Origin: a virus
Virus record (IMG/VR): IMGVR_UViG_3300038468_000223
Location: 1-64,000 of that record
Direction: 5' to 3' (one strand)
Length of the DNA: 64,000 nt
Made by a program: the position numbers and the translations under genes
Notes under the pieces: generated by a model
Database searches by the model: none
What the model was told of the DNA's origin: nothing
The model's input: the letters and a program-made list of their open reading frames with translations, nothing else
Shown here: positions 3,708-42,536 of the stretch, one piece after another
How the letters are laid out: every line of letters starts with the position of its first letter
Position numbering within the stretch: the stretch's first letter is position 1

Positions 3708-3895
3708 CAGGCACCTCCTTCGAGTCGCGCTTGCACGTGCGTGATCGTGGCGGACCGCACCTCGAGCCCCGCGAGCATGCGGGTGATCGTCGAGTGGGAG
3801 ATGCCGAGCTTCTTCGAGCTGTTCCTCAGCCCTTCCCTGTCGACGAGGGCTCGGAGCTTGATCTGCAGGGCCTTGGGTGTGATCGCGTCGCTCAT
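3707..3895 (-). CDS. Small helix-turn-helix DNA-binding protein
   Basis: 62 residues. The stretch LRNSSKKLGISHSTITRMLA is a standard helix-turn-helix with the G at the turn. It is divergent from the Cas12m-like effector; the 90-bp gap between them holds an inverted repeat that could be its operator, so it may control both directions. Confidence 0.65.
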   Translation of the reverse strand: MSDAITPKALQIKLRALVDREGLRNSSKKLGISHSTITRMLAGLEVRSATITHVQARLEGGA

Positions 3896-3907
3896 GTCGA
3901 TCGGAGC

Positions 3908-3985: not shown

Positions 3986-5668
3986 ATGTCTCTGCGTACC
4001 GGGTCGACTCCACGACCTGTAGGCGAATCAGTCGAAGGACACAGCGGAGGATCTGCCGCGGAAGAGAGCCCCTCGACGCTCGCCAATCGCCCCTCTGGGG
4101 CCACTCCAACTGCCTCCCCGCAAGGGGAGTGCGGAGACGTGGCTCCTTCAGCAGACGATGAAGTCATCTGCGCCAAGTGCGGCAAGCCGCAGGTCCACAA
4201 GGACGACGGCAAGAAGCAGGAGGTCTGCTCCTGCATCAAGATCGTCCGGGCTACGACGCGGTTCCAGATCGACCTGACGTCGCTCAGCCCCAAGGCCCCG
4301 CCGGGGGCCAAGCGGCCGCTGTCGCCGGCGGAGAAGGCGCTGCGCGACGCGCTGCAGGACGTCGCCGTGCTCGCGACGACGGCGCGCAACGTCGCGATGC
4401 GCGCGAACTACGGCGCCGACTCCAAGAGCCTCGACGACTACCTCCTCGAGCACGGCGAGATGCCGCGGAAGTCTGCGGACTGGTGCACGACGAAGCTCTA
4501 CTCGTACCCGAAGATCCGCGCGGCGGTCCCTCGGCTCTCGAGCAACATCGCCGCCACGCTGCAGCGCGAGATCGATCGGAAGTGGTCGCAGGTCCGCTTC
4601 GACGTCCTCATCCGCCAGATCGACTCGTGCCCGCACTTCCGCGTCGGCCAGCCGGTGCCGGTCCCCGCATCCTCGCTCAGGATGCGCAAGCGCGAGGACG
4701 GCGCGCTCGTCCTGTCCTTCTCGCTCTACTCCGGGGCCCACGACGGCGTGAAGAGCGTCGAGGTCCCGATGATCGCGCGCGACGACCACCAGCGGGAGCT
4801 GCTGGAGAAGATCGCGACGGGCGAGTACAAGTACGGGCAGGCGATGATCGAGCGCGATCGGCTGCGGCCGTCGCGGTGGTACCTGCGCCTGGCGTACACG
4901 CGCAAGGTCCCCAAGCGCACCGAGGGGATCGTGGCCGGCGTGCATCGCGGCATCAAGACGTTCCTCTGCGCCGTCACCGCCGACGGCGAGCAGTGGCTCT
5001 ACGACGGCTACGACATCGAGGCGTACCTGAAGCAGGTGCAGCGCCGCCGGCGTCGGATCCAGAACAGCGTCGTCGCGAGCGCACGCGTCGGCCACGGGCG
5101 ACGCCGCGTGCTCACGCCGATCTCGCATCTGCAGGACAAGGCGGCGCGGTGGCGCGCGACGCGGTGCCAGGTGATCGCGCGGCGCCTGGCGCAGTGGCTC
5201 TCGGACCGCAACGTGCGGCGCGTCTACCTCGACGACTTCGTCGGCATCCGCAACGGGCTGCCCGAGCAGCTCGAGGGGGGCCAGACGACCTGGCAGCGGA
5301 TCCAGGAGTGGCCCTTCTACGAGATGCAGATGCGCTTGATCGCGTGCCTGCAGGAGTACGGCATCGAGACCGTCGTCCGGCCCGCGGCGTACATCTCGCA
5401 GCGGTGCCCCCGCTGCGGTCACGTCGCGCAGGAGAACGTCGACCTGAAGTTCTGGTGCGTGCGCTGCACGAAGTGCCGGTTCAAGAAGCACCTCGACATC
5501 AGCGCCGGCATGAACCTCATCGCGAGCGGCGAGGCGGCGTCGAAGGGCGAGCCTAGTGATTTCCTGCGGATGCAGGAGAAGATAGAGGAGGTCCGGAGGG
5601 GCGCTCGCAGAGCGAGTCGCAAGAGCACGAAATCAAAGGAGGCCGACGCGCGGGGGCGGAAGGCGTGA
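3986..5668 (+). CDS. cas12m: Cas12m-like type V CRISPR effector with degenerate RuvC triad (H-D-D)
   Basis: 560 residues from the ATG with GGAGGA upstream. N-terminal disordered Ser/Pro-rich part, then a C-x2-C...C-x-C cluster (C62, C65, C81, C83) and a helical middle. The C-terminal half is a TnpB/Cas12 RuvC: RuvC-I is GVHRGIKTF (H320 where Asp is expected), RuvC-II is VYLDDFVGI (D416 where Glu is expected), a zinc ribbon with C474, C477, C491 and C494, and RuvC-III HLDISAGMNL (D504). Size and H-D-D pattern fit the Cas12m (V-U1) group, reported to bind DNA and block transcription without cutting it. The gene leads straight into a repeat array on the same strand and its TGA lies in the first repeat. 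No cas1/cas2 nearby. A TnpB-family alternative is less likely given the array. Confidence 0.85.
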   Translation: MSLRTGSTPRPVGESVEGHSGGSAAEESPSTLANRPSGATPTASPQGECGDVAPSADDEVICAKCGKPQVHKDDGKKQEVCSCIKIVRATTRFQIDLTSLSPKAPPGAKRPLSPAEKALRDALQDVAVLATTARNVAMRANYGADSKSLDDYLLEHGEMPRKSADWCTTKLYSYPKIRAAVPRLSSNIAATLQREIDRKWSQVRFDVLIRQIDSCPHFRVGQPVPVPASSLRMRKREDGALVLSFSLYSGAHDGVKSVEVPMIARDDHQRELLEKIATGEYKYGQAMIERDRLRPSRWYLRLAYTRKVPKRTEGIVAGVHRGIKTFLCAVTADGEQWLYDGYDIEAYLKQVQRRRRRIQNSVVASARVGHGRRRVLTPISHLQDKAARWRATRCQVIARRLAQWLSDRNVRRVYLDDFVGIRNGLPEQLEGGQTTWQRIQEWPFYEMQMRLIACLQEYGIETVVRPAAYISQRCPRCGHVAQENVDLKFWCVRCTKCRFKKHLDISAGMNLIASGEAASKGEPSDFLRMQEKIEEVRRGARRASRKSTKSKEADARGRKA

Positions 5669-7527: not shown

Positions 7528-8520
7528 ATGAAGCCCGCCGATCTCGCCCTCGCCGCCCTCTCCGGACCCGAGGCTCCGCTCGCGCCGCTCGAGGCGACGC
7601 GCGCGGACCAGAACCCGGTCTTGGTCTACCTGGCCGGCCGCAAGAGCGAGCGCACGCGCCAGACCATGCGCCAGGGCCTCGAGCGGCTCGCGCGCGCCGG
7701 CGGTTGGGCGAAGTACCCCGTCGAGGCCATCCCCTGGCACCAGATGACGTTCGCGCACACCGACGCGCTGCGAGCGGCGCTCACCCGGCAGGTCTCGCAG
7801 TCGACCGTGGCGCTGTCGCTCGCGGCGCTGCGCGGCGTGTCCAAGACCGCCTGGAAGCTCGGCCTCGTGACCTACGAGCAGCACGCGCGCGCGACGGCGT
7901 GGGACCTCGGTGGGACCCCAGACCGCCTCCCTGCCGGACGCGAGATCTCGCCGCCGGAGATCGTCAAGCTCCAGGCCTACTGCACGGCACAGCCGACGCC
8001 GTACGGCGAATTTCTCAGCGGGATCTTCGCGGTGCTCTTCGGCGCCGGCATGCGCGCGCACGAGCCCGGAGGGCTCACGATCGACGCCTACGATCCGGAT
8101 GAGCACTCGGTGCGCTTCGTGCGCAAGGGGCGCAAGCAGGCCGAGATCCCGCTGGGCGGCGCCGAGGCGGCCGCGCTCGAGGCCTGGATCGCGGTCCGCC
8201 GCACGCTCGACGTGCCCGCGACGTGGCTCTTCCCGCGCGTGCAGCGCAACGGCATCGTGCGCGCCCAGCCGATCACGAACAAGGGGCTCTGGCACCTCTG
8301 CAAGGCGATCGGCGAGGCGGCGAGCATCCGCGAGTTCAGCCCGCACGACACGCGCCGAACGTACTGCACGCGCCTGCTCAGCTCGGGGCTCGACCTGGCG
8401 ACGGCGCAGCGCCTCATGAGCCACTCGAGCCCGGCGACCACGGTCCGCTACGACAAGCGGCAGGCGCGCGCCGACGCCGAAGCGCGGCAGCGCGTGACGA
8501 TCTGGGGAGGTGAAGGATGA
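7528..8520 (+). CDS. Tyrosine recombinase (XerC/D-like integrase)
   Basis: 330 residues. The N-terminal half is a SAM-like core-binding domain (SERTRQTMRQGLERLARAGG onwards). The catalytic domain holds the expected residues: Arg in FGAGMRAHEPGGL, the H-x-x-R box in SPHDTRRTYC, His in LMSHSSPATT and the nucleophile Tyr in TVRYDKRQA. It joins or resolves DNA at a specific site, so the element may integrate or resolve multimers. The next gene overlaps by ATGA. Confidence 0.9.
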   Translation: MKPADLALAALSGPEAPLAPLEATRADQNPVLVYLAGRKSERTRQTMRQGLERLARAGGWAKYPVEAIPWHQMTFAHTDALRAALTRQVSQSTVALSLAALRGVSKTAWKLGLVTYEQHARATAWDLGGTPDRLPAGREISPPEIVKLQAYCTAQPTPYGEFLSGIFAVLFGAGMRAHEPGGLTIDAYDPDEHSVRFVRKGRKQAEIPLGGAEAAALEAWIAVRRTLDVPATWLFPRVQRNGIVRAQPITNKGLWHLCKAIGEAASIREFSPHDTRRTYCTRLLSSGLDLATAQRLMSHSSPATTVRYDKRQARADAEARQRVTIWGGEG

Positions 8521-9792: not shown

Positions 9793-9852
9793 CCTCGCGG
9801 CCCGCGGCCGGCGCTCGCCTCGCGGCCCGCGGCCGGCGCTCGCCTCGCGACC
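9793..9852. repeat. 25-bp tandem repeat, two full units and a partial third
   Basis: Units beginning CCTCGCGGCCCGCGGCCGGC start at 9793, 9818 and 9843. They directly follow a stop codon and begin the non-coding region. Confidence 0.7.
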
Positions 9853-9870
9853 CGCCGGCGCCCGGCACTA

Positions 9871-9890
9871 CCAGTGGACCCCCGACGTTC
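9871..9890 (-). repeat. Dispersed motif M, copy 2
   Basis: Forward strand reads CCAGTGGACCCCCGACGTTC; the following bases GTCGGTCCAC can pair back on it. Confidence 0.6.
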
Positions 9891-10181
9891 GTCGGTCCAC
9901 ATTGGTGCGCGTTCGTGCGTTTCGCTCACGACCGTCGACAGTGGCTTTTTGAGGCCTTTCCTAGATAGTTCTGAGCGTGATCTGACATGCATCTAAGCCC
10001 CCTTTCGTGCGACGCCTACCGCGATTACCCGCGAACGCCTTCCGGTATGGGGCGCGTCGAAAGGGTCCGGGTCACCTGATCGGGCACATCCAAACCCTTC
10101 CAGTAGAATCCGCACCAAGCGGCCTCATCAATAGATTGCGCTACGGTAGAGCTTGGCGCCCGGCCGCGCGGGCGCGCCGGG

Positions 10182-10269
10182 GGGCGCCCGGACGCCCCCA
10201 CGGCGGCGCTAGGACGCCCCAGGATGCGCCCGGGGCGCCGAGTACAGGCGCCCGGGCGTCCGGGCGCCC
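10182..10269. repeat. Perfect 16-bp inverted repeat with 56-base loop
   Basis: GGGCGCCCGGACGCCC at 10182-10197 is the exact reverse complement of 10254-10269. The loop itself contains partly self-complementary GC-rich words, so a large cruciform or RNA fold is possible. Confidence 0.7.
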
Positions 10270-11001
10270 CCTCGCCCGTCCTAGCCCGTCCAGCCGCTAA
10301 CTACGCGGAATCATTGAGCTTTTTTGGTGCGTACTTGGGTGCGCTAGGGCGCGTAAGGACCTACGCGGTCGTGATCTAATGATTTCGCGTACTTAGCGGA
10401 TCGCGCCCGCGTAGACCCTTGCGCACCCTAGCGTAACCCCGCGAAACTACACGCGCCCCACGTTGGCGCGCCGCCTGCAACGGCGGGGGTTGCGCTGGCA
10501 AATAGCCGGCGCTTCCAGGGCCCCGCGGTCGCACGCGGGCGCGCCACCCTGGCGACCGGCGGGAACCGCGCACAAGCGCGCGGACGGGCCCGCACTAGAC
10601 CGGCCCACCTGAGAGGGCGACGAGAGAAGTAGCGCTCGCACGCACAAGGAATCGGACGATCTCCGACGGAAATTAGACGCGCGAAACCGGCGCGTCGAAA
10701 GTACGGGATCCCAAGGGATAGACGTACACCGCGGAGTGAGCGGCACCGAAACTGAGGACAAGGATCGTGCTCCGCACGATCGAAGTCTAAGCGACTAGGT
10801 CAAGCACGTTGAACGCGTGCGGATCGATCGCGAGGCGAGTAGAGCGCGAAATCATCTCGGAATGTCGCTGAGCCTTCATAGGGCGATGAAGCTTGAACGC
10901 GCTGGGTAGGGTGCGAGGCCGGAGAGATCGATCGTCAACGTTTACGCCAGGATCGATCCAAAGCTAGGGGAGTTCTCCCTGAAAGCTTCACGAAGCGAGA
11001 T

Positions 11002-11190
11002 ATGAAACGTTCGTGTCACCTTGGCAAGGGCTGCGACCGTTACAAGTCGTATAGAACGAACGCGGAGTATCTCAGCGCTGTTGAGCGGCAAGCCTACGAC
11101 CTAAACTCTAGGCTTGTTCGTGGCGAAGGAAGGGATTGTAAACTCTGCGAATCCGTGCGAGTAGTCGTTCATCTAGATCGTCCCTGGTAG
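11002..11190 (+). CDS. Possible small Cys-rich protein
   Basis: 62 residues with CHLGKGC near the start and CKLC near residue 48, a possible zinc site. Base composition is lower in GC than around it. Upstream sequence forms small hairpins and lacks a strong ribosome site. Kept because codon structure and the paired cysteines look real. Confidence 0.4.
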   Translation: MKRSCHLGKGCDRYKSYRTNAEYLSAVERQAYDLNSRLVRGEGRDCKLCESVRVVVHLDRPW

Positions 11191-11244
11191 GGTCCGATAG
11201 AGTTTGGACGGCGAAACCGCGGCGAGAAGCAACGCAAGACACTT

Positions 11245-11332
11245 GAGCCGAATCGTCCGTGTATGCGCGACGGTTCGGCTCGTGTCGAGCGATGCGAGAA
11301 GCGGCCGATGCTATCGACCGCTTCTCGCATCG
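11245..11332 (+). terminator. Two strong adjacent stem-loops
   Basis: GAGCCGAATCGTCCG (11245-11259) pairs with CGACGGTTCGGCTC (11268-11281), and CGATGCGAGAAGCGG (11290-11304) pairs perfectly with CCGCTTCTCGCATCG (11318-11332). GAAAGGGGAAC follows. No U-run; these could be transcript ends or the leader structures seen in the module at 11630. Confidence 0.5.
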
Positions 11333-11407
11333 TTCAGTCGGTGTGAAAGGGGAACCTAGTCACGCATCGTTCTAGAGCGGCTCGTATGCCGCGAGAACGA
11401 TCGATAG

Positions 11408-11623
11408 GTAACAGTCGGATACGGGAAAGCAAATCATCCGGAAAATGCACGGGATGACGCCCGAAACGCGGTCGACGCCTCGGCACTGGAGACGTCCTTC
11501 GACGTCGCGGCGACGATCGCGGCGCTCGAAGCGTCGATCGACGCCATCCGCAGGGGCGACGGCTCGAAGGCGGCCGATCGCGCGGGCGAGGCGTTCGCGC
11601 GCCTCGCGTTCTTTCACCGCTAG
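11408..11623 (+). CDS. Coding-like frame without a usual start codon
   Basis: From the stop at 11405 this frame stays open for 71 codons and its second half reads DVAATIAALEASIDAIRRGD and AGEAFARLAFFHR, a believable helical protein, yet no ATG, GTG or TTG begins it. A stem-loop module follows its stop, as it does after the neighbouring real genes. A frame change from the ATG at 11445, or an unusual start, may explain it. Confidence 0.35.
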   Translation, partial: VTVGYGKANHPENARDDARNAVDASALETSFDVAATIAALEASIDAIRRGDGSKAADRAGEAFARLAFFHR

Positions 11624-11629: not shown

Positions 11630-11749
11630 GGGCGAGCCGTGAGGCTCGCCCGTCGAAAAGGGCCCTCGACTTGAGCATCCACACCTCGCGCGGCTCACGC
11701 GGGGATTCATTGTGGAAGGGTCGAGGGCCCTTTTCGACGAAAGGGGAAC
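11630..11749 (+). promoter_or_regulatory. Intergenic double stem-loop module U1
   Basis: GGGCGAGCC/GGCTCGCCC (11630-11651), then GTCGAAAAGGGCCCTCGAC (11652-11670) pairs perfectly with 11720-11738, immediately followed by GAAAGGGGAAC and the next start. Confidence 0.8.
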
Positions 11750-11753
11750 ACAC

Positions 11754-12392
11754 ATGGATATCAAGTGCGTTCGCTGTGGCGAGCCGTGGGACGCCTACGG
11801 CGTCGCCCACGGCGACATGCTGCCGTGGGAGGCTGCGCTGTTCAAGCGAGGGGCGGGCTGCCCCTCGTGCGAGGGCAAGTCGAACGGTTGGGAGCCCCAG
11901 ACGATCGACGACGTCGAGAACGGCGACGGCGATCCCATGGAGCGTATCGCCGCACACGAGAATGGCGCCGCCATCGCGTGGAAGCGCCCGGCGGATCCCG
12001 TGCACTGGACGTGCGACGGGTGTGGCGTCGAGGTAGTCACGGACCTCGACACGAACGAGCTAGAGTACCGCGTGCCGTTCGGTGCGAAGTGCCGCCAGTG
12101 GTACGCGTCACACCGATTCGACCGCGGCGCTCCGGAGAAAGAGCCGGCGCACGTATTCGGCGAGTGGAAGGTGTGCGAGTTCTGCCTGGATCGGTGTGCC
12201 GATTGCGGGACCGAGATCTCGACTCACCTGGAGTTCGGCGATCCGTACGCCGACGGGTATGCTTTTCCGCAGCCCGGCTCCTACACCGACTCGGTGTGCA
12301 CCGACTGCTTCGAGCAGTATTGCTCGGAATGCGAATCGCGCGAGTGCTCGTGCGGCTCGTGCCTTGCGGCCGACGACGACGACGCAGACTGA
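11754..12392 (+). CDS. Multi-zinc-finger protein
   Basis: 212 residues with at least six paired-cysteine knuckles: CVRC, CPSC, CDGCG, CEFC/CADCG, CTDC and a terminal CSECESRECSCGSC, ending in an acidic tail ADDDDAD. The spacing suggests several separate zinc ribbons joined by acidic linkers. No enzyme motif. It opens a run of similar small genes, each behind a stem-loop module, and probably acts in protein or RNA binding. Confidence 0.7.
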   Translation: MDIKCVRCGEPWDAYGVAHGDMLPWEAALFKRGAGCPSCEGKSNGWEPQTIDDVENGDGDPMERIAAHENGAAIAWKRPADPVHWTCDGCGVEVVTDLDTNELEYRVPFGAKCRQWYASHRFDRGAPEKEPAHVFGEWKVCEFCLDRCADCGTEISTHLEFGDPYADGYAFPQPGSYTDSVCTDCFEQYCSECESRECSCGSCLAADDDDAD

Positions 12393-12398
12393 TCACTT

Positions 12399-12544
12399 GG
12401 GCGAGGCGAGTCACGAGGCTCGCCCGTCGAAGGCGGGACACGAGAGATGACGTTCGTCGATCCGAGCTACGACGCGAGACGTTCTAGCTCCGCACGAAGC
12501 GAACCTCTCACATTCTCTCGTGTCTCGCCTTCGGCGAAAGGGGA
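12399..12544 (+). promoter_or_regulatory. Double stem-loop module U2
   Basis: GGGCGAG/CTCGCCC (12399-12425), then the arm starting GTCGAAGGCGGGACACGAGA (12426-12446) pairs with 12515-12535; GAAAGGGGAA and the next start follow. Confidence 0.8.
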
Positions 12545-12551
12545 ATGAACC

Positions 12552-12677
12552 ATGCTCAAGTTCAAGCGCAAGCTGGCGTTCAAGCTGGTGTGCAAGTGCG
12601 GCACGTGTGGCCACAAGGTCGGCCGCAAGCGCGGTCAGTGCCGCGACCCGTTCGACTGCTTGGGGGCGTCGTCGTGA
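12552..12677 (+). CDS. Small basic zinc-ribbon protein
   Basis: 41 residues, strongly basic: MLKFKRKLAFKLVCKCGTCG then KVGRKRGQC and DPFDC, giving CKCGTC plus C...C. The ATG is 7 bases after the AGGGGAA of module U2. Too short for most gene finders; the GTGA overlap with the next gene supports it. Confidence 0.6.
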   Translation: MLKFKRKLAFKLVCKCGTCGHKVGRKRGQCRDPFDCLGASS

Positions 12678-12982
12678 GACGGAACAACCACGTCGAGCGC
12701 GACAACGAGACCTTCAGCGCGGAGGCGTACACCGTCCGCCGTCACGGCGGCGTCGCGTGGCGCGTGCTCGGTTGGGAAACCGAGCCCGACGAGGACACCG
12801 AATGGTCGGGCGTCGAGAATCGAACCGGCCGCGTCGTCGCGCACATGGTCGGCGATGACGCGCGCTTCACGTTCGATCCGGAGGACCTCACGCCGATCAA
12901 GCGCGAGGACTACTGCGGCGAGTGTGGCCAGATCGGGTGCACGCACGACGGCCTCGATCGCGACGACGACGACGAGACCTAG
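12674..12982 (+). CDS. Small acidic protein with C-terminal Cys cluster
   Basis: 102 residues from a GTG that overlaps the previous stop. It has a beta-rich first half (VRRHGGVAWRVLGWE) and ends DYCGECGQIGCTHDGLDRDD, a likely zinc site with an acidic tail. Role unknown. Confidence 0.65.
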   Translation: MRRNNHVERDNETFSAEAYTVRRHGGVAWRVLGWETEPDEDTEWSGVENRTGRVVAHMVGDDARFTFDPEDLTPIKREDYCGECGQIGCTHDGLDRDDDDET

Positions 12983-12988
12983 ACCGAC

Positions 12989-13084
12989 GGCGAGGGCCCC
13001 CAAGCCCTCGCCCGTCGAAAGAGTCTCGCGAGCTAGACCAAACGCCTCGGGGCGGGCTCGCGGGTCTCTTTCGACGAAAGGGGA
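12989..13084 (+). promoter_or_regulatory. Double stem-loop module U3
   Basis: GGCGAGGGC/GCCCTCGCC (12989-13013), then GTCGAAAGAGTCTCGCGAG (13014-13032) pairs with 13057-13075, followed by GAAAGGGGAAC. Confidence 0.8.
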
Positions 13085-13089
13085 ACATC

Positions 13090-13606
13090 ATGTCGAAAGA
13101 AGAGAGGCACGAGGTCTCGCCGGAAAACGCCGCGAAGTTTCGCGATTGGATCGCGAGGCGCGGAGGCGTCGCCGTCTGGCATAGTATCAACCTGTCCAAC
13201 ATCGGCGCGTCGTGGAGCACCCCCGCCCTCCGAGAGGACGGGACCCCCACGCCCAAGCCGACGTGGGAGGCCGACGACAAGCCGGCGAATCCTGGCGCAG
13301 CCGAACGGCGGGATCTCCGACGTCGGGCGCGCGTCGTTCGACGAAGTCCTCGCGGCGACTGAGGAGCTACACGCGGAGCCCGGCTCGGGGCGTCTGATCG
13401 CCGCGGTGCTCGACGCGTACGAGAACGCGCCGGGCGCGCGCGCGGGGACGGCCTACGGGCTGATCCAAGGCGTCACCTATTACGAGACGCACCTCCGCGG
13501 CCGCTCGGCGGCTGATCGCTACGTCAACCGCCTGACCGCCGTCAAGGACGACGCGCTCTTGATCGAGACGGTGCTCGACGAGCTGAAGATCAGCCGCGCC
13601 GCGTGA
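13090..13606 (+). pseudogene. Unknown small protein split by a frame change
   Basis: From ATG 13090 the frame reads plausibly to about residue 66 (GGVAVWHSINLSNIGASWST..WEADDKPA), then turns Arg-rich and stops at 13362. Another frame becomes coding-like at about 13285 (ISDVGRASFDEVLAATEELH) and continues through LIAAVLDAYENAPGA and YGLIQGVTYYETHL to a stop at 13606. The second part alone could start at GTG 13406. One inserted or lost base near 13285 would join them; one gene is the simpler reading because the module structure places one gene here. Confidence 0.55.
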
Positions 13607-13615
13607 CGTTCCGCC

Positions 13616-13720
13616 GGGCGAGCCGCGAGGGCTCGCCCGTCGAAACAGGCTTCCGAGCGTGACGCGAGTCACGTTCCACCCTCTAGCGCCGCTCGGGGGC
13701 CTATTTCGACGAAAGGGGAA
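13616..13720 (+). promoter_or_regulatory. Double stem-loop module U4
   Basis: GGGCGAGCC/GGCTCGCCC (13616-13638), then the arm 13639-13659 (GTCGAAACAGGCTTCCGAGC...) pairs with 13690-13710 with some G-U pairs; GAAAGGGGAAC follows. Confidence 0.75.
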
Positions 13721-13725
13721 CGAGC

Positions 13726-13962
13726 ATGATGGCTCTTTTGCGAGAATTGCGAGAACTCTACTCGGTGGTGTACAGCAACACCGAGTCGTTCGAGGTCGAC
13801 GACATCGGAGCCGACCTAGCGTATCTGATGGGCGCCATCGTCTCCGACGACGTCTGCACCTGGCCGGCCGATCGGCCGTTGGTCTTGATTCTCAAGGCGC
13901 ATTTCCAGCCGAGCCACGAGGTGTGGCGGTACGTGCGCCTCGAAGGAGGAGAACCAAAATGA
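13726..13962 (+). CDS. Unknown small protein
   Basis: 78 residues, soluble, starting MMALLRELRELYSVVYSNTE. Contains VCTWPADRPLVLILKAHF. The ATG is placed right after the AGGGGAAC of module U4 and the stop overlaps the next ATG, so both starts are well supported. No family recognised. Confidence 0.65.
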   Translation: MMALLRELRELYSVVYSNTESFEVDDIGADLAYLMGAIVSDDVCTWPADRPLVLILKAHFQPSHEVWRYVRLEGGEPK

Positions 13963-14338
13963 AGGTCACGATCGAAAGCACGGTCGATCCGACTTGGATC
14001 GACTACCTCCTCAAGAGGCCCGATATCTTCGGGGCCCCCTACCACGCCGGCTACTGGCTCGGCGCGATCCTCTACCACCCCGACAGGGGGTGGCTGGTGT
14101 GAGAGCACGAGGACCGGCGCGTCGACCGCACCGATCGGCGCCACCGAGCCGCGATCAAGGCCTGGGAGGCGGGCGAGCCCCTTCCGAAGGGCTACTACCG
14201 CCTCGACGAAGCTGCGGCCGCCCGCGCGTGGGTGGAGGGCGTCAAGCGGTGGGGGGAGTCGTGGTACGTCGACGGCGACGGGCCGCGCTACGACGTCGCC
14301 GTCCAGCTCGCCCTGCTCGGCGAGGAGCGCTACGGGTG
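13959..14338 (+). CDS. Small accessory protein interrupted by an in-frame TGA
   Basis: The frame from ATG 13959 reads MKVTIESTVDPTWIDYLL..GWLV, meets TGA at 14100-14102, then continues in the same frame for 78 clean codons (EHEDRRVDRTDRRHRAAIKA..YYRLDEAAAARAWVEGVKRW..VAVQLALLGEERYG) to TGA at 14336-14338. As I recall, homologous small proteins are a single chain across this point. Point mutation, sequence error or UGA read-through are possible. Without the second part the protein is 47 residues. Confidence 0.6.
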
Positions 14339-14343
14339 AACCG

Positions 14344-14534
14344 CCGGGCGAGCCGAGAGGGCTCGCCCGTCGAAGGCGGGACACGAGAGCTGAACGTCGA
14401 GGCTTCACTGTTGGTGCTCCGAGCCAGCGGGCTCGGGGGCCCTAGCGACCCTCGGGGCGGCGGCCGTCCGGCCCTCGTTCCCTCCTCCCCGCCGCCGCGG
14501 GGGTCGCTAGGGCTCTTCAAACCAAAGGGGACGA
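14344..14534 (+). promoter_or_regulatory. Double stem-loop module U5 (variant)
   Basis: The 5' half copies module U2 (GGGCGAGCC hairpin, then the same 21-base arm at 14369-14389), but no matching 3' arm follows. Instead come a motif-M copy and a different long hairpin, GGGCCCTAGCGACCC (14437-14451) against GGGTCGCTAGGGC (about 14500-14512), then AAAGGGGAC and the start. Confidence 0.7.
14392..14410 (+). repeat. Dispersed motif M, copy 3
   Basis: GAACGTCGAGGCTTCACTG, lying inside module U5. Confidence 0.55.
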
Positions 14535-14536
14535 CA

Positions 14537-15133
14537 ATGAAACGAGAGCGAATCAAGAACCTGTCGTGTGCCTCGATCGACGTGAAGCCGATCGACTACG
14601 ACTGGTCCGACGAGAACCACCCGTACGGCGAGGCGTGGGACTTCTGGGAGGCCGGGGACTGCACGAAGTGCGGCAAGTACGCCGTGGTCTCCTCGTCCGA
14701 CGAGACGCACTCCGACGTCGATGACGAGTCGGAGTGCGACGGGACCATCCAGGCGAACGTCGACGGCCCCATGAATAGCTACTACTACCCGCTCCCCGGC
14801 CTCGTCCGCGACGACGCGCTCAAGATCGCGCACCTCCCGCTCTGCATCGTCGAGGTCGACGGCGAGACGGGTCTCGCCCTCACCGGCGGCGGGATGGACC
14901 TCTCGTGGGAGATCTGCGAGGCGTTCATGCTCCTCGGCGAACTCCCGCCGCTGCACTTCGCGGACCTGCCCGGGATGGCGGGGCGCGGGACGTCCGAGCG
15001 CGATCGATGGATCATCGCCGGGTGCCTCCAGTCGTGCGCCGTCGCGGTGGGGTGGGCGCGGTCGCGGGCGAAGCGACTGCGCGAGACGGCCAAGCACGCG
15101 CGCGAGGCTCTCCAGAAGAAAGGGAAGGCTTGA
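14537..15133 (+). CDS. Unknown 198-residue protein with zinc knuckle
   Basis: CTKCGKYAVVSSSDETHSD with a later C suggests a zinc-binding insertion at about residues 42-65. The rest is mixed, with SWEICEAFMLLGELPPLHF and a basic C-terminal helix ending REALQKKGKA. No family recognised. A single spacer base separates it from the next start. Confidence 0.6.
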   Translation: MKRERIKNLSCASIDVKPIDYDWSDENHPYGEAWDFWEAGDCTKCGKYAVVSSSDETHSDVDDESECDGTIQANVDGPMNSYYYPLPGLVRDDALKIAHLPLCIVEVDGETGLALTGGGMDLSWEICEAFMLLGELPPLHFADLPGMAGRGTSERDRWIIAGCLQSCAVAVGWARSRAKRLRETAKHAREALQKKGKA

Positions 15134-15134
15134 G

Positions 15135-15572
15135 ATGAGAACCATCCTCGTCAGCATCACCAAGACCGTCGCCGTCGAAGTGCCCGACGAGTCGTGGGTC
15201 ACCGCCAGCTTGATCGCGCGCATCGCGCGGTGGAAGCTCGACGACACGACGGACGGCCGTCGGCCGTTCTCGACGGAGTTGATCGAGGATGGGGTGTCGC
15301 GTGGCGTGGACTACGCCGTCGACGAGACGGTGTTCCACCTGATAGCGAACCTGCCGAGGTACCGTCGAGGTCGAGGTGAGAACCTCGACGAGCGCAACGC
15401 CCTGGTCGAGAAGGAATGCGCTGCGATCAAGCGGCGGCCGATCTACGGCCTGGAGATCCGCGCCTTCGACGGCGTCGGCGACGAAGGGATCTGCCGCGCG
15501 TGCGGCATGCTGTCGCGCACCGAGCCGGCGGACGACGGTCTGGTACGCTGCAATCAGTGCGGGATGCACTGA
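15135..15572 (+). CDS. Unknown protein with C-terminal zinc ribbon
   Basis: 145 residues. It begins with strand-like MRTILVSITKTVAVEVP and ends with CRACGMLSRTEPADD..RCNQCGMH, a CxxC...CxxC ribbon. The central helical part has no recognised motif. Confidence 0.65.
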   Translation: MRTILVSITKTVAVEVPDESWVTASLIARIARWKLDDTTDGRRPFSTELIEDGVSRGVDYAVDETVFHLIANLPRYRRGRGENLDERNALVEKECAAIKRRPIYGLEIRAFDGVGDEGICRACGMLSRTEPADDGLVRCNQCGMH

Positions 15573-15582
15573 GGGGGACCTC

Positions 15583-15714
15583 ATGGGCAAGGAGACCAAG
15601 GAAATGGAAACGGTCAAGGATCGGTTCAACGTCATCCAAATTACGAACGGCGGGCTCGTCGACCACGGGTCGCGCCCCGGACGCGAGCAGCCGGACTGGT
15701 CGATCCACACGTAG
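15583..15714 (+). CDS. Very small protein
   Basis: 43 residues, MGKETKEMETVKDRFNVIQI then HGSRPGREQPDWSIHT. GAGGGGGACC upstream is the ribosome site. A stem-loop module follows the stop. Role unknown. Confidence 0.5.
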   Translation: MGKETKEMETVKDRFNVIQITNGGLVDHGSRPGREQPDWSIHT

Positions 15715-15722
15715 CCCTCGTC

Positions 15723-15843
15723 AGGCGAGCCGCGAGGCTCGCCCGTCGAAGAGGCCCCGTGAACGCTTGCGAGCCGCGCGGTCGTTCCCCCCGCGCGCGG
15801 CCCGCTTGCCCGAGCGCTCACGAGGCCTCTTCGACGAAGGAGG
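15723..15843 (+). promoter_or_regulatory. Double stem-loop module U6
   Basis: GGCGAGCC/GGCTCGCC (15724-15743), then the arm 15745-15767 (GTCGAAGAGGCCCCGTGAAC...) pairs with 15813-15835, followed by GAAGGAGG and the next ATG. Confidence 0.8.
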
Positions 15844-15849
15844 TAGGGC

Positions 15850-16335
15850 ATGGACAACGAGAAGGACATTCAAGCCGCCAAAACCCGGCTGGAGGACGCC
15901 GTGAGCGCCGTCGCCACGGCGGCGCAGTGTCTCCAACAGATCGAGGGGGTGCGCATCAAAGAGGGCGCGCTCGTCGACCTGGAGGACTGGAAGGAGCTTC
16001 AGGAGGCGCTGGCCGAGTGGCGCGCCGCTACGCAGCACTTCCTCGCGACCGCGTTGGAGGCCGGCCGCGGGCCCGAGATCGGAGACATCATCGCCGTACG
16101 TCGTCGAGCTGGTCTCGTCGCCGCCCATGGTGGGCAGAAGTTCTACGTCTCCTGCGGCGGCGACCCGAGTGTGGGCATCCCCGGTCAACAGGCCGAGGTG
16201 CTCCTCTGGGTCGACCCTCACGACTCGGAGGCGATTCCCTTCGTGAAGGAGCAGCTCGCCTCGGCGTTCACGGCGATCTGGGACGAACGCGTGATGGTGC
16301 TGACCGAAGAGGAATTCAAGGCCGACATCGCGTAG
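15850..16335 (+). CDS. Unknown 161-residue protein
   Basis: N-terminal helical coiled-coil-like part (EKDIQAAKTRLEDAVSAVAT, EDWKELQEALAEWR) then a mixed domain with QKFYVSCGGDPSVG and a C-terminal VMVLTEEEFKADIA. GAAGGAGG from module U6 is the ribosome site. A GC-rich hairpin follows the stop. Confidence 0.6.
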   Translation: MDNEKDIQAAKTRLEDAVSAVATAAQCLQQIEGVRIKEGALVDLEDWKELQEALAEWRAATQHFLATALEAGRGPEIGDIIAVRRRAGLVAAHGGQKFYVSCGGDPSVGIPGQQAEVLLWVDPHDSEAIPFVKEQLASAFTAIWDERVMVLTEEEFKADIA

Positions 16336-16346
16336 CGACGTCGCGG

Positions 16347-16380
16347 GCCGCCCCCGTCCCACGAAAGGGACGGGGGCGGC
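16347..16380 (+). terminator. GC-rich hairpin
   Basis: GCCGCCCCCGTCCC-ACGAAA-GGGACGGGGGCGGC, a perfect 14-bp stem after the 15850 gene; no U-run follows. Confidence 0.5.
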
Positions 16381-16438
16381 ACGGGATGCCGGTGCATCTC
16401 GGAGGAGCGACACGGAGTCGCACCTCGAAAGGATCACG

Positions 16439-17482
16439 ATGGAACAACTGAAGATCGTCTGCGACGTCCCCAAGGACGTCGCGGCGCGAGCCGGTAGCTC
16501 GCGATACGGGACGGTGACCTTCGCCGTCGAGGACGCACACCTGGCCGAGCTGTCGGCCGACGAGCGCGCCGCCTTGTGCAGGTTCACCAGCTACTCGCCG
16601 CTGGCGATCCCCCAGTGCAAGGGGTCCCCCCTCGACTGGGAGACGGTGCGCGACGCGCTGCGGGCGACCCTCGCGACGGACGAGGAGCGCCGCTCGCGCG
16701 AGAAGCGCGAGAACGAGGAGCGCCGCGAGCGCGCGGTGACCAAGGCGCTCGCCAAGCCCCTCGGGGACTGGATCGGGCGCGGAAGTCGGGACTTCGTCCT
16801 CCACAACGGACAGTACGCCGAGACCGGCGTCCGGGAGTGGGAGCCCGAACTCAAAGACTTCCCCGGTTGGGAAGGCGACGACGCCGTCAAAAGCGACCCG
16901 CGCATCAAGGCGCGGCGCGCCGAGCTGGAGCCCGCGTTCCGCGAGCTTCACTCCGCGTGGGAGAAGCGGTACGCCGCGTGGGAGGCGGCGGTCGCGGAGG
17001 CCCGCGCCGAGGTCCAGGCCAGGACCGAGCGCTACGCGCGGCTCTGCCGCGAGTACGTCATCGGGCACGTTGACGAGTACAAGCGCGCGGCGTGCCTCGG
17101 CAAGAAGGTCAACGCCGTGGCCGAGCGGCACGCGACCAAGGCGCTCAACGAGCGCCTGCTGGTCGTGCAGCAGAGGCGCCTGCCGGACGTCGACCGGCTG
17201 CCGCTCCACGGCTCGGAGGAGGAGCAGCCCGCGCCACACCAGACGGCGTACGAGGTCTACGACGAGGTGTCGCAGGCGCTCAGGCACTTCGAGTGCCCCC
17301 TCATCGCAGGCTGGTCGGCGAGCATCATCCGGCGTCGCAACAGGTCCCGCACGCGGACGTGCGTGCAGGTCGAGATCCGGTGGGTCGACGACGAGGTGTC
17401 ACACTTGTGGGTCTACGCCGACGCGGCGCCGCCGCCCGATCGGTTCTTCGACGAACCGGCCGACGTCGACGACGACGAGTAG
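16439..17482 (+). CDS. Large charged coiled-coil protein of unknown function
   Basis: 347 residues. Residues about 75-105 are very charged (EERRSREKRENEERRERAVT), and residues 155-205 form a long helix (ELHSAWEKRYAAWEAAVAEA). The C-terminal third is beta-rich with RTCVQVEIRWVDDEV and ends in an acidic PADVDDDE. It could be a structural or nucleic-acid-associated scaffold; no enzymatic motif is visible. Confidence 0.6.
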   Translation: MEQLKIVCDVPKDVAARAGSSRYGTVTFAVEDAHLAELSADERAALCRFTSYSPLAIPQCKGSPLDWETVRDALRATLATDEERRSREKRENEERRERAVTKALAKPLGDWIGRGSRDFVLHNGQYAETGVREWEPELKDFPGWEGDDAVKSDPRIKARRAELEPAFRELHSAWEKRYAAWEAAVAEARAEVQARTERYARLCREYVIGHVDEYKRAACLGKKVNAVAERHATKALNERLLVVQQRRLPDVDRLPLHGSEEEQPAPHQTAYEVYDEVSQALRHFECPLIAGWSASIIRRRNRSRTRTCVQVEIRWVDDEVSHLWVYADAAPPPDRFFDEPADVDDDE

Positions 17483-17494
17483 CGACCTCGCGGT

Positions 17495-17524
17495 CCGCCC
17501 CCTCCCGGAGCAGGGAGGGGGCGG
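17495..17524 (+). terminator. GC-rich hairpin
   Basis: CCGCCCCCTCCC-GGAGCA-GGGAGGGGGCGG, placed after the 16439 gene just like the hairpin at 16347. Confidence 0.5.
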
Positions 17525-17556
17525 GACGAGTGGCCGGTACAAAGGAGGATGACAAG

Positions 17557-17826
17557 ATGCGGAAGACCATGACCTGGGGCGTGATGCCCTCACGCGAGGA
17601 GTTCGACGAGGCGTGGGATGCCCAGTGCGACGAGCGGTTCGCCTTCGGTAACGATCCGCGACTCGGAACGTGCGCCCTGTCGCAGGACGAACTCTGGGAG
17701 GAGCTTTTGAAGGCCCATGCCGAGAGCCAAGCCGTCGACGGTTCCTCTGACGACGGAGGGGCACCGGAGCGCGCGGGCGACTGGTGTTCGGCCGTTCTGT
17801 ACTGCCTCGGCTTCGAGTGGGTCTGA
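17557..17826 (+). CDS. Small acidic protein
   Basis: 89 residues, MRKTMTWGVMPSREEFDEAW and SQDELWEELLKAHAESQA, ending WCSAVLYCLGFEWV. AAAGGAGG lies upstream. No family recognised. Confidence 0.6.
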   Translation: MRKTMTWGVMPSREEFDEAWDAQCDERFAFGNDPRLGTCALSQDELWEELLKAHAESQAVDGSSDDGGAPERAGDWCSAVLYCLGFEWV

Positions 17827-17843
17827 CGCCAAAGGAGGAGAGG

Positions 17844-18251
17844 ATGAAAAAGATCGAGGTGCTCAAGGTGGACTTGAGTGGTGTCACGCTGCTCGGGGGA
17901 CACGAGGCCCGCGTGACGTGGCCCGCGCTTCGCGCGGCGGCCTACCAGGCCGACGACGACCTGGCCGTTCCGTACGCCGTCGCGCTGCTCGACGCGCTCG
18001 AGCGCGTCTACCGCGGGCCCGAGGAGGCCCTGCGTGCCGGTCAGGACTGGCTGGAGTGGCACCACATGAGGGTGCAGCCCTATTGTGGACCAGAGATGGC
18101 CGACGCCGGGTACGGACCCGCGGCGCGTGCCGCCGAGCGCAGGCGGGTCGAGACCGACATCCACGCCGAGCTAGTCGCGGTGGCTCCGGTGATCCGTCGG
18201 GTGAGGGAGCTGGCGGCGGCTGTCCGCCGCGCGGCGGAGGTGCGATCGTGA
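17844..18251 (+). CDS. Unknown helical protein
   Basis: 135 residues with AAAGGAGG upstream. Mainly helical (VTWPALRAAAYQADDDLAVP, RRVRELAAAVRRAAEV). Coupled by GTGA to the next small gene. Confidence 0.6.
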   Translation: MKKIEVLKVDLSGVTLLGGHEARVTWPALRAAAYQADDDLAVPYAVALLDALERVYRGPEEALRAGQDWLEWHHMRVQPYCGPEMADAGYGPAARAAERRRVETDIHAELVAVAPVIRRVRELAAAVRRAAEVRS

Positions 18252-18253
18252 TC

Positions 18254-18454
18254 ATGAACTACTACACCAAGGGCTGCACGCCGTACGGCGCCGACATGGG
18301 TCGGCGAAGCGACCTGCCGCGCGACACGAAGGGCCCGCTGCGCGTGTGCCGCGTGCCCCTCGACGAGGGCGGCTACGATCCCGGCGGCGCGTACGCGGCG
18401 CCGTGGAGGTCTGGACCAAGAGGGAGACGTCATGAACAAGTCCATGTCGAATGA
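18254..18454 (+). CDS. Small protein (LRVCRVPLDEGGYDPGGAY family), possibly truncated
   Basis: Starts at ATG 18254 or the overlapping GTG 18248. The core GRRSDLPRDTKGPLRVCRVP and LDEGGYDPGGAY resembles a short protein I have seen widely in phages and plasmids. After AAPW the sequence turns Arg-rich and runs into the next gene, so the usual C-terminus appears to be lost by a frame change near 18400. Role unknown. Confidence 0.5.
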   Translation: MNYYTKGCTPYGADMGRRSDLPRDTKGPLRVCRVPLDEGGYDPGGAYAAPWRSGPRGRRHEQVHVE

Positions 18455-19172
18455 CGAGTATACGGCCCTGATCCGAGCCACGCGCGACGACACTCGCGCC
18501 GGATGCGTCGCCGCGCTCCGCAAGCTCGGAATCACGAGCGAGGCGGCAACGCTGCTCGCTAACGTCTCCGGTCTGCATCGGCACGAGCGCAGGGTGTTGC
18601 GGGTGCTCGACCTCGCCGCCGATCTCGATGGCGGTGAAACGGAGCTGTTCTGGCTCTGCCTCTTCGAGGGCGGCGGCAGCGGCGGGCGTGCCGGCCTGGG
18701 CGGCCCCCTCGGCCGCTCGACGACGCGCCTTGCGATCTTCGGGTCACTCGGTACGGGGCGCCAACACGCGTCCGATGGCGGAGCGTGGGACGCCGCGATC
18801 CGCGATGCCGCACGCGAGCTGATGCCGCGCGTCCTGGGTGACGGGCGGTGCGGCGGTCAACTGATCCCGACGCACGCTGAGGGCGCGCCGGACGACGGAG
18901 TCGTGGACTCCGTCGTCACCGATCCATACGACGGGAGCCGGCGCCGGACCGGCTCGTACGGCGTCGACGCGCTCGTGCGCTGGGGCGGGCGCGCTGCGGT
19001 AGCGTGGTGCGGCCGCGTGCTGTGTCGTGCTGCGGGCACGGCAGGGGCGCCCGCGCCACACAATCAGTGGTTCGGCGACTGGACGACCGAGATGTGCGAT
19101 CTCGACGTGCACGGGTGGACGCGCGTCTATGAGACGGCCGTTGCAGTCCTCGGGGAGTGCGACCTGACATGA
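18432..19172 (+). CDS. Unknown 246-residue protein
   Basis: N-terminal helical part (DEYTALIRATRDDTRAGCVA, GITSEAATLLANVSGL) followed by a Gly/Ala-rich centre and a C-terminal part with NQWFGDWTTEMCDLDVHGWT. Composition is unusual for the region and parts may be disordered. ATGA overlap with the TPR gene. Confidence 0.5.
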   Translation: MNKSMSNDEYTALIRATRDDTRAGCVAALRKLGITSEAATLLANVSGLHRHERRVLRVLDLAADLDGGETELFWLCLFEGGGSGGRAGLGGPLGRSTTRLAIFGSLGTGRQHASDGGAWDAAIRDAARELMPRVLGDGRCGGQLIPTHAEGAPDDGVVDSVVTDPYDGSRRRTGSYGVDALVRWGGRAAVAWCGRVLCRAAGTAGAPAPHNQWFGDWTTEMCDLDVHGWTRVYETAVAVLGECDLT

Positions 19173-20014
19173 ACCACACACCGTCTCACGACATCTTCGT
19201 CGCCGGCGCCGCCGACAGAGGTGAGTGGCGAGAGCGCCACCGCGGTGGCGTCGACTCGCGGCGGATGCGCAGCCAGTGGCGTCGCGCGAAGAGCATGACG
19301 GCCCGGCTTCACGGTGCCGTGCGCGCCTCGCGCCAACGCTTTAGCCTGATCGAGAGGCCGACGCAGTCGAGCATCGCCGAGTACCTCCGGTACACCCGCG
19401 CACTGTACGGCGGCCGCGAGACGCCGATCTTCCACGTGTCCCTCTTCCGCGACCGGCTCCCTCTGGCCGTCGTCGACCGCCCACCCGAGAACGACACGGC
19501 CGAGCCGCGCGCCGAGATCATCCAGTTCCCGCGCACGGAGCAGCGCCGCAAGAGCGCGTACGATCTCTACGTGCAGGCGAGCGCCCTCGACGAGGACAGC
19601 ACGGCTTTCAACAAGACCGAGGCGCTCTACCGACGCGCGATTGCGCTCGATCCCAACCTCGCCATCGCCTACACCAACCTGGGCAACATCCGCTTCCGCC
19701 GCGGCGACGAGCTGGGCGCCCTCGCGCTCTACAAGCAGGCGCTGCAGCTCGACGAGACGCAGCCCGAGGCGCACTACAACATCGGCTACGTGATGCTAGA
19801 GCGCGGCGAGTTCAAGACGGCGAGGAGCTGCTTCGAGCGCGCGCTGCGGTACGATCCGCGCTTTGCCGACGCGCACTTCAACCTCGCGACGACCCTCGAG
19901 CAGCTCGGGGAGGCGCGCAAGGCGCGCCCGCACTGGAAACGCTACCTAGAGTTCAATCCGCGCGGCGTCTGGGCCGACGACGCGCGCCAACACCTCGGAA
20001 AGGCCGACCGATGA
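19169..20014 (+). CDS. Tetratricopeptide-repeat protein
   Basis: 281 residues. The second half has at least four TPR units, for example YRRAIALDPNLAIAYTNLGN, YKQALQLDETQPEAHYNIGY and FERALRYDPRFADAHFNLAT, ending HWKRYLEFNPRG. TPR arrays bind peptides or partner proteins. The N-terminal 110 residues are basic and may bind nucleic acid. ATGA coupling on both sides, to the lipoprotein downstream. Confidence 0.85.
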   Translation: MNHTPSHDIFVAGAADRGEWRERHRGGVDSRRMRSQWRRAKSMTARLHGAVRASRQRFSLIERPTQSSIAEYLRYTRALYGGRETPIFHVSLFRDRLPLAVVDRPPENDTAEPRAEIIQFPRTEQRRKSAYDLYVQASALDEDSTAFNKTEALYRRAIALDPNLAIAYTNLGNIRFRRGDELGALALYKQALQLDETQPEAHYNIGYVMLERGEFKTARSCFERALRYDPRFADAHFNLATTLEQLGEARKARPHWKRYLEFNPRGVWADDARQHLGKADR

Positions 20015-20337
20015 AGATCACCATCCTCTCCGCTCTCCTCCTCTGCGCCTGCGGCGCCCCGTTCGAGGCCTCGCCCGGCGACGGCTCGCCCAGTGAGCCC
20101 CCGAGCCACGAGGCCTCGACTCGCGAGGCGCGCGACGAGGCGCCGAGCGCCGTCGCACCGACGCTCGACGCCGGCGCGAACCCCACGGCGCCCGACGCCG
20201 GCGGCGAGGCCTGCCCCGCGACGCCGGAGTACTATCAGCGCGCCCAGAGCGAGCTGACCAAGTCGTCGGGCCCGACGTGGTGCCCGTGCCCGAGCACGTC
20301 GTGCTGCTACGACGGGCTCGTCTGCGTCGCGAAGTAG
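20011..20337 (+). CDS. Cys-rich lipoprotein, family copy 2
   Basis: 108 residues. The signal peptide is MKITILSALLLCACG with a lipobox Cys. A low-complexity Ser/Pro/Glu linker is followed by CPATPEYYQRAQ..WCPCPSTSCCYDGLVCVAK, nearly the same C-terminal module as the gene at 2490. Coupled to the TPR gene by ATGA. Confidence 0.75.
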   Translation: MKITILSALLLCACGAPFEASPGDGSPSEPPSHEASTREARDEAPSAVAPTLDAGANPTAPDAGGEACPATPEYYQRAQSELTKSSGPTWCPCPSTSCCYDGLVCVAK

Positions 20338-20345
20338 GAGGAGAC

Positions 20346-20723
20346 ATGGACCGAGCAAGCTTCGAGAAGCTGTCGCTCTTTGACCAGGCAGAGCACCTCC
20401 TCGGTAGCCTCGGCAGCGGATTGAAACTGCCACTCAGCGTGGCGGCGGTCAGCGCCGACAGGCTGACGTGGTGCGAGGACGGCGTTCTGAGGTGCGCGGA
20501 CGGCGTCCTGATCGACGACTCCATCCGAGTCGTCAAGGACGACAGCCTCCCCGGCTACGTGGTGACGTACGAGAGCCGTTCCGGCGTGGTCGAGATCGCG
20601 GCGGAGCACTGCGCCGCCTCCGCCTTGGTGGAGGCGTTCACCGCCGCCTTCCGAGAGCGGCTCCGCAAGGCGGTCGAGGACCTCGTCGAGCCCCCTCCGC
20701 CCCCCAGTGAGCCCTCGACGTAA
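20346..20723 (+). CDS. Unknown small protein, proline tail
   Basis: 125 residues. MDRASFEKLSLFDQAEHLLG begins a helical part, then strands (VVTYESRSGVVEIAAEHC) and a C-terminal VEPPPPPSEPST. AGGAGGAG upstream is the ribosome site. Confidence 0.6.
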   Translation: MDRASFEKLSLFDQAEHLLGSLGSGLKLPLSVAAVSADRLTWCEDGVLRCADGVLIDDSIRVVKDDSLPGYVVTYESRSGVVEIAAEHCAASALVEAFTAAFRERLRKAVEDLVEPPPPPSEPST

Positions 20724-20730
20724 GGAGGAT

Positions 20731-20847
20731 CGACGTTCGAAAGCAGCACACGAGCGGACCTTGTGCGAGTCCAGGACGGGCAAGCGGTTCGGGGTCATGC
20801 CCGCACACGTGTCGCGCCGCACGCTCGTGCGCTGCTTCCGAACGTCG
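20731..20847 (+). promoter_or_regulatory. Long inverted repeat, module U7
   Basis: The 26-base arm 20731-20756 (CGACGTTCGAAAGCAGCACA...) pairs with 20822-20847 with few mismatches, and AGGAGGAG follows. The outer bases are CGACGTTC/GAACGTCG, the start of motif M. Confidence 0.75.
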
Positions 20848-20861
20848 ACGAGGAGGAGAAG

Positions 20862-24121: not shown

Positions 24122-24476
<355 letters not shown>

Positions 24477-24493
24477 ACGAAAGGGGAAAGTAC

Positions 24494-24664
24494 ATGGAGT
24501 GGTTCACCGTCGACAAGGAGGGGCTCGCCCAGCTCCTCGCTCGCAGGGGGAAGGTCTTCGCCCTCTACGAGCTGATCCAGAACGCGTGGGACACGAACGC
24601 CAAGCACGTCTGCGTGGATCTTCATCCGAGCGCGGGCCGCCCCCTGGTGGAGGTAGAGGCATGA
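24494..24664 (+). CDS. Small protein with GHKL-like start (IQNAWD)
   Basis: 56 residues from the ATG after GAAAGGGGAAAG. FALYELIQNAWDTNAKHVCV looks like the N box of GHKL ATPases (ELIQNAxDA), yet the protein stops soon after, so it is a fragment or a mimic of that fold. ATGA overlap with the next gene. Confidence 0.55.
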   Translation: MEWFTVDKEGLAQLLARRGKVFALYELIQNAWDTNAKHVCVDLHPSAGRPLVEVEA

Positions 24665-26848: not shown

Positions 26849-27178
26849 ATGACGCGATCATGCTCTCGCGCGGCCGGCGCCGCCGCCCTGGTGGCCGCGG
26901 TGGCTCTCATTGCCGTCGACCTTCCCTCGCTCGGTTGCGGCGGCGAGTTCACCGGGCTCGTCGATGTAGCTAACGAAGGTGGCGCTAGCATCGACGGCCG
27001 GCGGTCCTGGCGGGCGCCCAGTGCGCGTCGTCGTCTCCACCGGGATGCCTCGTCGCGCAGTGCCGAGCGAAGCCACACTCCCTCACCCTGTGGAAGCCTC
27101 GTCGTTCCGCTCGAACGACGAGGCTTCCACGGGTGTGAGGACCGCTCGGGACCGCGCCGGCTGAGAAACGCCGTCTGA
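26849..27178 (+). CDS. Short secreted protein or relic
   Basis: Signal-peptide-like start SRAAGAAALVAAVALIAVDL, then LGCGGEFTGLVDVANEGGAS. After about residue 50 the frame becomes Arg/Ser-rich and crosses the hairpin at 27090, so the gene is probably damaged or was shorter. TTTGGAGG precedes the ATG. Confidence 0.4.
   Translation: MTRSCSRAAGAAALVAAVALIAVDLPSLGCGGEFTGLVDVANEGGASIDGRRSWRAPSARRRLHRDASSRSAERSHTPSPCGSLVVPLERRGFHGCEDRSGPRRLRNAV
27090..27130 (+). terminator. Perfect 18-bp stem-loop built from motif M
   Basis: GTGGAAGCCTCGTCGTTC (27090-27107), loop CGCTC, then its exact complement (27113-27130), which is motif-M copy 7. No U-run. Confidence 0.7.
27113..27130 (+). repeat. Dispersed motif M, copy 7 (arm of a hairpin)
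   Basis: GAACGACGAGGCTTCCAC, with a perfect inverted partner at 27090-27107. Confidence 0.6.
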
Positions 27179-42460: not shown

Positions 42461-42462
42461 GG

Positions 42463-42536
42463 CGCGCCGTGCAGGGGTCGAACCTGCAGCCTTCCAGCTC
42501 TAACGACTGGACGCTCTACCTTTGAGCTAACAGCGC
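42463..42536 (-). tRNA. tRNA with 9-base anticodon loop (anticodon uncertain)
   Basis: Cloverleaf on the minus strand: acceptor GCGCTGT with ACGGCGC (one T-G pair), D arm GCTC/GAGC, anticodon stem TCCAG/CTGGA, T arm GCAGG-TTCGACC-CCTGC, discriminator G, CCA not encoded. The anticodon loop is TCGTTAGAG, nine bases. If the outer T-G pairs, the loop is seven bases with TTA in the centre but no T at position 33. Confidence 0.8.

Follow-up and report, generated by a model that had tools for sequence, protein, structure and literature searches.

Five gaps of a phage genome between 11.6 and 15.9 kb, each located before a co-directional small gene, contain the same composite element (M1-M5), and a sixth copy (M6) lies further downstream at 20730. 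These modules are real, covary in their stems and have the standing of an orphan family; most likely they act at gene boundaries as RNA signals for processing or insulation, as predicted from their sequence and position. They probably cut or insulate a shared message and expose the ribosome site of the next gene. The window, i.e. the whole stretch of DNA that was analysed, comprises bases 1-64000 (64,000 nucleotides) of a 105,511-base IMG/VR virus record (a 105.5 kb phage contig, G+C 67%), and the remainder of the contig beyond the window was included in the analysis. The record is a DNA virus of bacteria and encodes a DNA polymerase, helicases, a primase and a tmRNA. Megablast and blastn searches of phage and plasmid sequences returned nothing useful and no close named relative.

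Layout of the modules

In M1-M5 the order is stop codon, hairpin 1, a long stem of 20-26 bp, ribosome site and ATG. The parts are as follows.

11630..11651 (+): M1 hairpin 1, GGGCGAGCC-GTGA-GGCTCGCCC, GNRA-type loop (sequence, fold, model match 84.9 bits)
11651..11739 (+): M1 long stem, arms 11651-11670 / 11720-11739, 20 bp perfect (inverted-repeat scan)
11738..11756 (+): M1 start-associated sequence CGAAAGGGGAACACACATG (motif scan)
12405..12424 (+): M2 hairpin 1, GGCGAGTC-ACGA-GGCTCGCC, one G-U pair (sequence, fold)
12425..12536 (+): M2 long stem, arms 12425-12447 / 12514-12536 (inverted-repeat scan)
12535..12554 (+): M2 start-associated sequence and ATG (motif scan)
12989..13012 (+): M3 hairpin 1, upper part altered on both sides, GGCGAGGGC...GCCCTCGCC (sequence, fold)
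13013..13076 (+): M3 long stem, arms 13013-13033 / 13056-13076 (inverted-repeat scan; 69.9 bits)
13075..13092 (+): M3 start-associated sequence and ATG (motif scan)
13616..13638 (+): M4 hairpin 1, loop GCGAG (sequence, fold)
13638..13711 (+): M4 long stem, arms 13638-13659 / 13690-13711 (inverted-repeat scan; 79.0 bits)
13710..13728 (+): M4 start-associated sequence and ATG (motif scan)
14346..14389 (+): M4b chimera, hairpin 1 and M2-type left arm (repeat families D14, D15; 27.9 bits)
14437..14515 (+): M4b unrelated long stem, then AAAGGGG and ATG 14537 (inverted-repeat scan)
15724..15743 (+): M5 hairpin 1, GGCGAGCC-GCGA-GGCTCGCC (sequence, fold)
15744..15836 (+): M5 long stem, arms 15744-15769 / 15811-15836, then GAAGGAGG and ATG 15850 (71.0 bits)
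20730..20848 (+): M6 long stem without hairpin 1, arms 20730-20756 / 20822-20848 (repeat and inverted-repeat scans)
after 20848 (+): M6 downstream part, GAGGAGG then ATG 20862 (sequence)
24122..24496 (+): phage tmRNA, 3' CCA then CGAAAGGGGAA and ATG (RNA-family match, motif scan)

The sequence and an inverted-repeat scan confirmed that the elements lie in the gaps where a sequence-only reading of the DNA had placed them. Hairpin 1 comprises 7-9 bp, mostly GGCGAGCC...GGCTCGCC, and is located 6-12 nt after the stop codon. Its loops vary (GUGA, GCGA(G), GAGA(G), GCGA) within a GNRA-like pattern typical of RNA. The long stem begins directly after hairpin 1 in M1-M5, and its 3' arm ends at the ribosome site. 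All long stems of M1-M6 run in the sense direction and end 0-4 nt upstream of the Shine-Dalgarno run and ATG, in agreement with the constant place between stop codon and ribosome site that had been claimed. The stem plan is likewise constant, with CGTCGAA, 9 variable bp and CGAG (or a near variant), and the fixed ends pair as CGTCGAA/TTCGACG and CGAG/CTCG; the loops of the long stems (22-66 nt) are unconserved.

The common plan proposed for at least six gaps holds strictly for four copies (11630, 12405, 12989 and 13616), which combine hairpin 1, a CGTCGAA...TTCGRCG stem, CGAAAGGGGAA and ATG. M5 (15724) departs from it by its ribosome site GAAGGAGG, and M6 (20730) lacks hairpin 1, has a stem reading GTTCGAA and uses GAGGAGG as ribosome site. 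The variant that had been suggested at 14344 was found at 14346 (M4b). It has hairpin 1 and a left arm but lacks the right arm; the stem before the next gene is a different, unrelated one. The M4b left arm is identical to M2 at 33/34 nt, on the left side only.

The stop codon upstream of M1 (11621-11623) belongs to a short frame unlisted by a simple gene caller. In the gene after M3 (13090-13606) the frame apparently changes at ~13290, due to either a sequencing error or gene decay. Elsewhere in the window, at 38980-39026, 20 bases identical to M1 (GCTCGCCCGTCGAAAAGGGC) occur behind a 10-bp inverted repeat (E 1e-4), inside a gene called on the - strand; they are a module fragment or a chance match.

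Pairing is retained while the stem sequence changes

Covariation was assessed on the six related copies M1-M6, whose arms were aligned by hand from the stem base, a procedure which leans towards pairing generally. The 5' arms differ between copies at 3-7 of the 9 variable positions, yet 50/54 pairs of the variable part are Watson-Crick or G-U when each copy keeps its own arms. With swapped arms an average of 5.3/9 positions pair, and the observed total exceeds that of all 719 rearrangements. Both sides have changed in 12 of 20 stem pairs, and the covariation score is 0.55 compared to 0.18 in shuffles (0/500 as high) and ~0.16 or less in slid registers. The claim that the inner stems differ and nevertheless stay paired is thus supported by these counts, and the covariance test on which the family had been staked was passed by the six copies, few, related and hand-aligned as they are. 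The nearest copies, M1/M5 and M2/M6, differ at 3/9 positions with the changes compensated, which looks like descent with retained pairing and not like unrelated palindromes.

Stems of this strength are rare. The inverted-repeat scan of the whole contig (105 kb) returned 12 repeats of module strength, while three first-order Markov sequences of equal length contained 0, 2 and 0. Eleven of the 12 are located outside called genes and seven directly upstream of a start site; no stem in the remaining co-directional gaps (60-600 nt) scored above 14. The six modules also fold far below dinucleotide shuffles (z -4.1 to -9.0; coding control mean -0.7).

Since pairing is kept without a conserved middle sequence, the data point to intrastrand pairing rather than to a protein operator. 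The 11 non-Watson-Crick stem cells (5 G-U, 5 A-C, 1 U-U) have no G-U bias, and both strands of the modules fold about equally well, with no consistent energy difference, so that the sequence alone leaves an action at the RNA level unproved. The constant sense orientation, the abutted ribosome site and the GNRA-like loops of hairpin 1 speak in favour of RNA, and pairing in RNA is the view we favour.

The start-associated sequence and relatives of the modules

There are five sites in the contig at which CGAAAGGGGAA is followed by ATG, all on the + strand (0 on the - strand, 0 in a reversed control). Four of these sites follow modules and one follows the CCA end of the phage tmRNA. A leader common to the modules and to a 3'-processed RNA fits processing.

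No homologous modules were found among 2.9 million viral contigs and 84,980 bacterial genomes. Pattern scans of the viral contigs gave 0 places for the hairpin-1/stem frame, 4 for the stem with a free middle and 4 for the left arm; the matches are without paired arms and resemble coding sequence. A match to the bare start sequence (L012) and the sole genome match (L040, Opitutae) have no stem and were likewise rejected. Protein searches detected distant DNA polymerase relatives only, and Rfam matches passing the gathering cut-off in the window were limited to the tmRNA and two tRNAs, with none at the modules at E<1. A covariance model built from M1-M5, as had been recommended for a wider scan, recovered its own copies, but its sole matches in 42 other viral records were two weak ones (E 0.06 and 0.23).

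Among 80 viral sites that share the start sequence, a single one (G001/L079) has a long stem. Its layout is stop, hairpin with T-run, long stem and CGAAAGGGGAACATCATG. Since no protein common to G001 and this phage is detectable, G001 is an analogy and not a shown homologue; it suggests that the module-type layout may have arisen more than once. G001 (L167 1990-2160) carries a terminator, a 17-bp stem and the start sequence CGAAAGGGGAAC before a small Cys-rich gene, and in a second gap (3834-3900) a hairpin precedes GGAAAGGGG.

Comparison with known elements

The SAS/ESAS elements of cluster K mycobacteriophages are the closest described element. There, ESAS inverted repeats are located just upstream of the conserved, Shine-Dalgarno-containing SAS in gaps >50 bp (PMC3203893). 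SAS is a 13-bp start-site sequence, GGGATAGGAGCCC, and the ESAS inverted repeats, of 17 bp, follow a consensus and have spacers of 4-13 bp (Pope et al. 2011; PMC3203893); their function is unsettled (PMC3203893, PMC12699233, PMC11373665). Both systems have several copies per genome, small genes of unknown function and, in gaps >50 bp, a conserved ribosome-site sequence immediately preceded by an inverted repeat. In contrast to SAS/ESAS, the start sequence here is CGAAAGGGGAA and not GGGATAGGAGCCC, the arms comprise 20-26 bp with a variable paired middle and spacers of 22-66 nt, a second hairpin precedes the stem, and a scan of 9.7-24.6 kb for promoters of the sigma-70 type only placed none within the modules. 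Because sequence, spacer and promoter differ, the resemblance to ESAS is one of layout, and the modules do not belong to that group.

Helices with RNase III sites are found between early genes of phage T7, one of them being R1.1 between genes 1.0 and 1.1 (PMC6121014). As in T7, the long hairpins here lie between genes that probably share a message, close to the ribosome site of the following gene. R1.1 differs by an asymmetric internal loop. We know of no description of conserved stem ends or of a paired leading hairpin for the T7 sites. The T4-type phages reportedly contain PeSL regulatory cassettes, repeated intergenic stem-loops linked to small-gene shuffling, described by Arbiol et al. in 2010. 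PeSLs carry an early promoter. The modules share the repeated intergenic stem-loop character and include one chimeric copy. A scan for sigma-70-like promoters found none in them, and a promoter of a phage-specific type may be present. Integron attC sites also place a paired stem with conserved ends and a variable middle between genes. They have the core RYYYAAC/GTTRRRY, which is absent from the modules, and the recombinase near the modules is no integron integrase.

Mycobacteriophages have been known since 2011 to carry start-associated inverted repeats, on whose function there is no agreement. That the repeats of a second phage, unrelated to these, covary argues that pairing, and not sequence, counts in such elements, and the modules offer a small, easily tested RNA set. 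The family carries limited weight because a single genome is its only known source to date.

A putative role in RNA processing and competing explanations

We tentatively propose, giving the idea somewhat less than even weight, that the modules punctuate a shared phage message as cis-acting RNA, with processing of the RNase III type between genes. In this model hairpin 1, just 3' of the stop codon, would protect the upstream message at its 3' end, and host RNase III would act on the long stem, whose 20-26 bp are joined by inner helices. The cut would part the upstream from the downstream message and leave a short leader with the ribosome site. The middle of the stem would drift while staying paired because RNase III needs a helix and not a given sequence, and the fixed stem ends and the start-associated sequence may be held by geometry, a second factor or recent common descent. 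We infer that the modules are transcribed through and cut, with effects on stability or translation. An RNase III site is expected in an intergenic helix of about two turns, and the stems of 20-26 bp have this length. The conserved stem ends count against RNase III, which does not need them, and the lack of a G-U bias and of a strand difference in folding energy also weighs against this proposal. An RNase III gene was sought in the contig and not found, and the enzyme is therefore assumed to come from the host. It is possible, but doubtful, that the modules constitute a new family of phage cis-acting RNA, a covarying boundary element of two hairpins that would cut the message gene by gene and provide each following gene with a standard start-associated sequence, the leader also found after the tmRNA. 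Only in some copies does the sequence behind the stop codon mask the ribosome site, and this is no common feature.

An inverted repeat of the SAS/ESAS kind could instead be an operator or promoter region, with the conserved sequence after it tuning translation of each gene. Such control is unlikely: the layout is that of cluster K ESAS plus SAS (PMC3203893), and later work placed putative SigA-like promoters in ESAS repeats (PMC11373665), but the sole sigma-70-like site in 9.7-24.6 kb (21753) is outside the modules, and an operator would keep its sequence, whereas the middle 9 bp change with pairing retained. Hairpin 1 and the long stem might also pause or terminate the polymerase or aid antitermination, resulting in stepwise expression down the gene array. 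The distance of 6-12 nt between stop codon and hairpin 1 would suit this, as would the unrelated contig G001, where a T-run hairpin takes this place before the long stem and CGAAAGGGGAAC. However, no module has a U-run after hairpin 1 or after the long stem, so that hairpin 1 is not a standard intrinsic terminator, and the number of terminator-like sites in the region (11) is close to that expected by chance (7.4 ± 3.1); we consider transcription punctuation quite unlikely.

The palindromes could further act as single-stranded or cruciform DNA, for instance as recombination joints that shuffle small genes. The neutral ratio of G-U to A-C speaks for this, as do the chimera at 14346, with 33/34 nt in common with M2 on its left side only, and a tyrosine recombinase encoded nearby at 7528-8520. 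What makes a role at the DNA level improbable is that every copy is sense-oriented directly before a ribosome site, that the attC core motif is absent and that no full-length element is conserved. The recombinase scores 37.2 bits with the integron-integrase model TIGR02249 (cut-off 265), and an integron attC array was rejected, as was a MITE reading. Template switching perfects imperfect palindromes and would mimic covariation, so paralogous palindromes kept perfect by such correction might have no function at all, and only a single genome is known. Against such an artefact, which we regard as very improbable, stand the fixed position before start sites, the conserved stem ends and start sequence, and the fact that the rest of the contig is almost free of such palindromes.

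Other features of the window

Upstream of the modules, ~1.8 kb (9793-11620) have no called gene and several strong stems (10180-10271, 10294-10399 and 11287-11335; z down to -7.2 in 150-nt windows), and an undescribed structured RNA may be located there. A TnpB-family protein is encoded at 4139-5668 (NF040570, 91.9 bits, slightly below the cut-off of 100) and is followed by ~1.9 kb almost without called genes. Two near-perfect hairpins, 27087-27133 (20 bp, loop 5) and 27357-27395 (16 bp, loop 7), sit in a 1.2-kb stretch without called genes. At 42461-42536 (-) a tRNA-like gene with the anticodon TTA, which would read UAA, adjoins a tRNA-Arg; since its position 33 is G and not U, it may be either a suppressor tRNA or a decayed tRNA.
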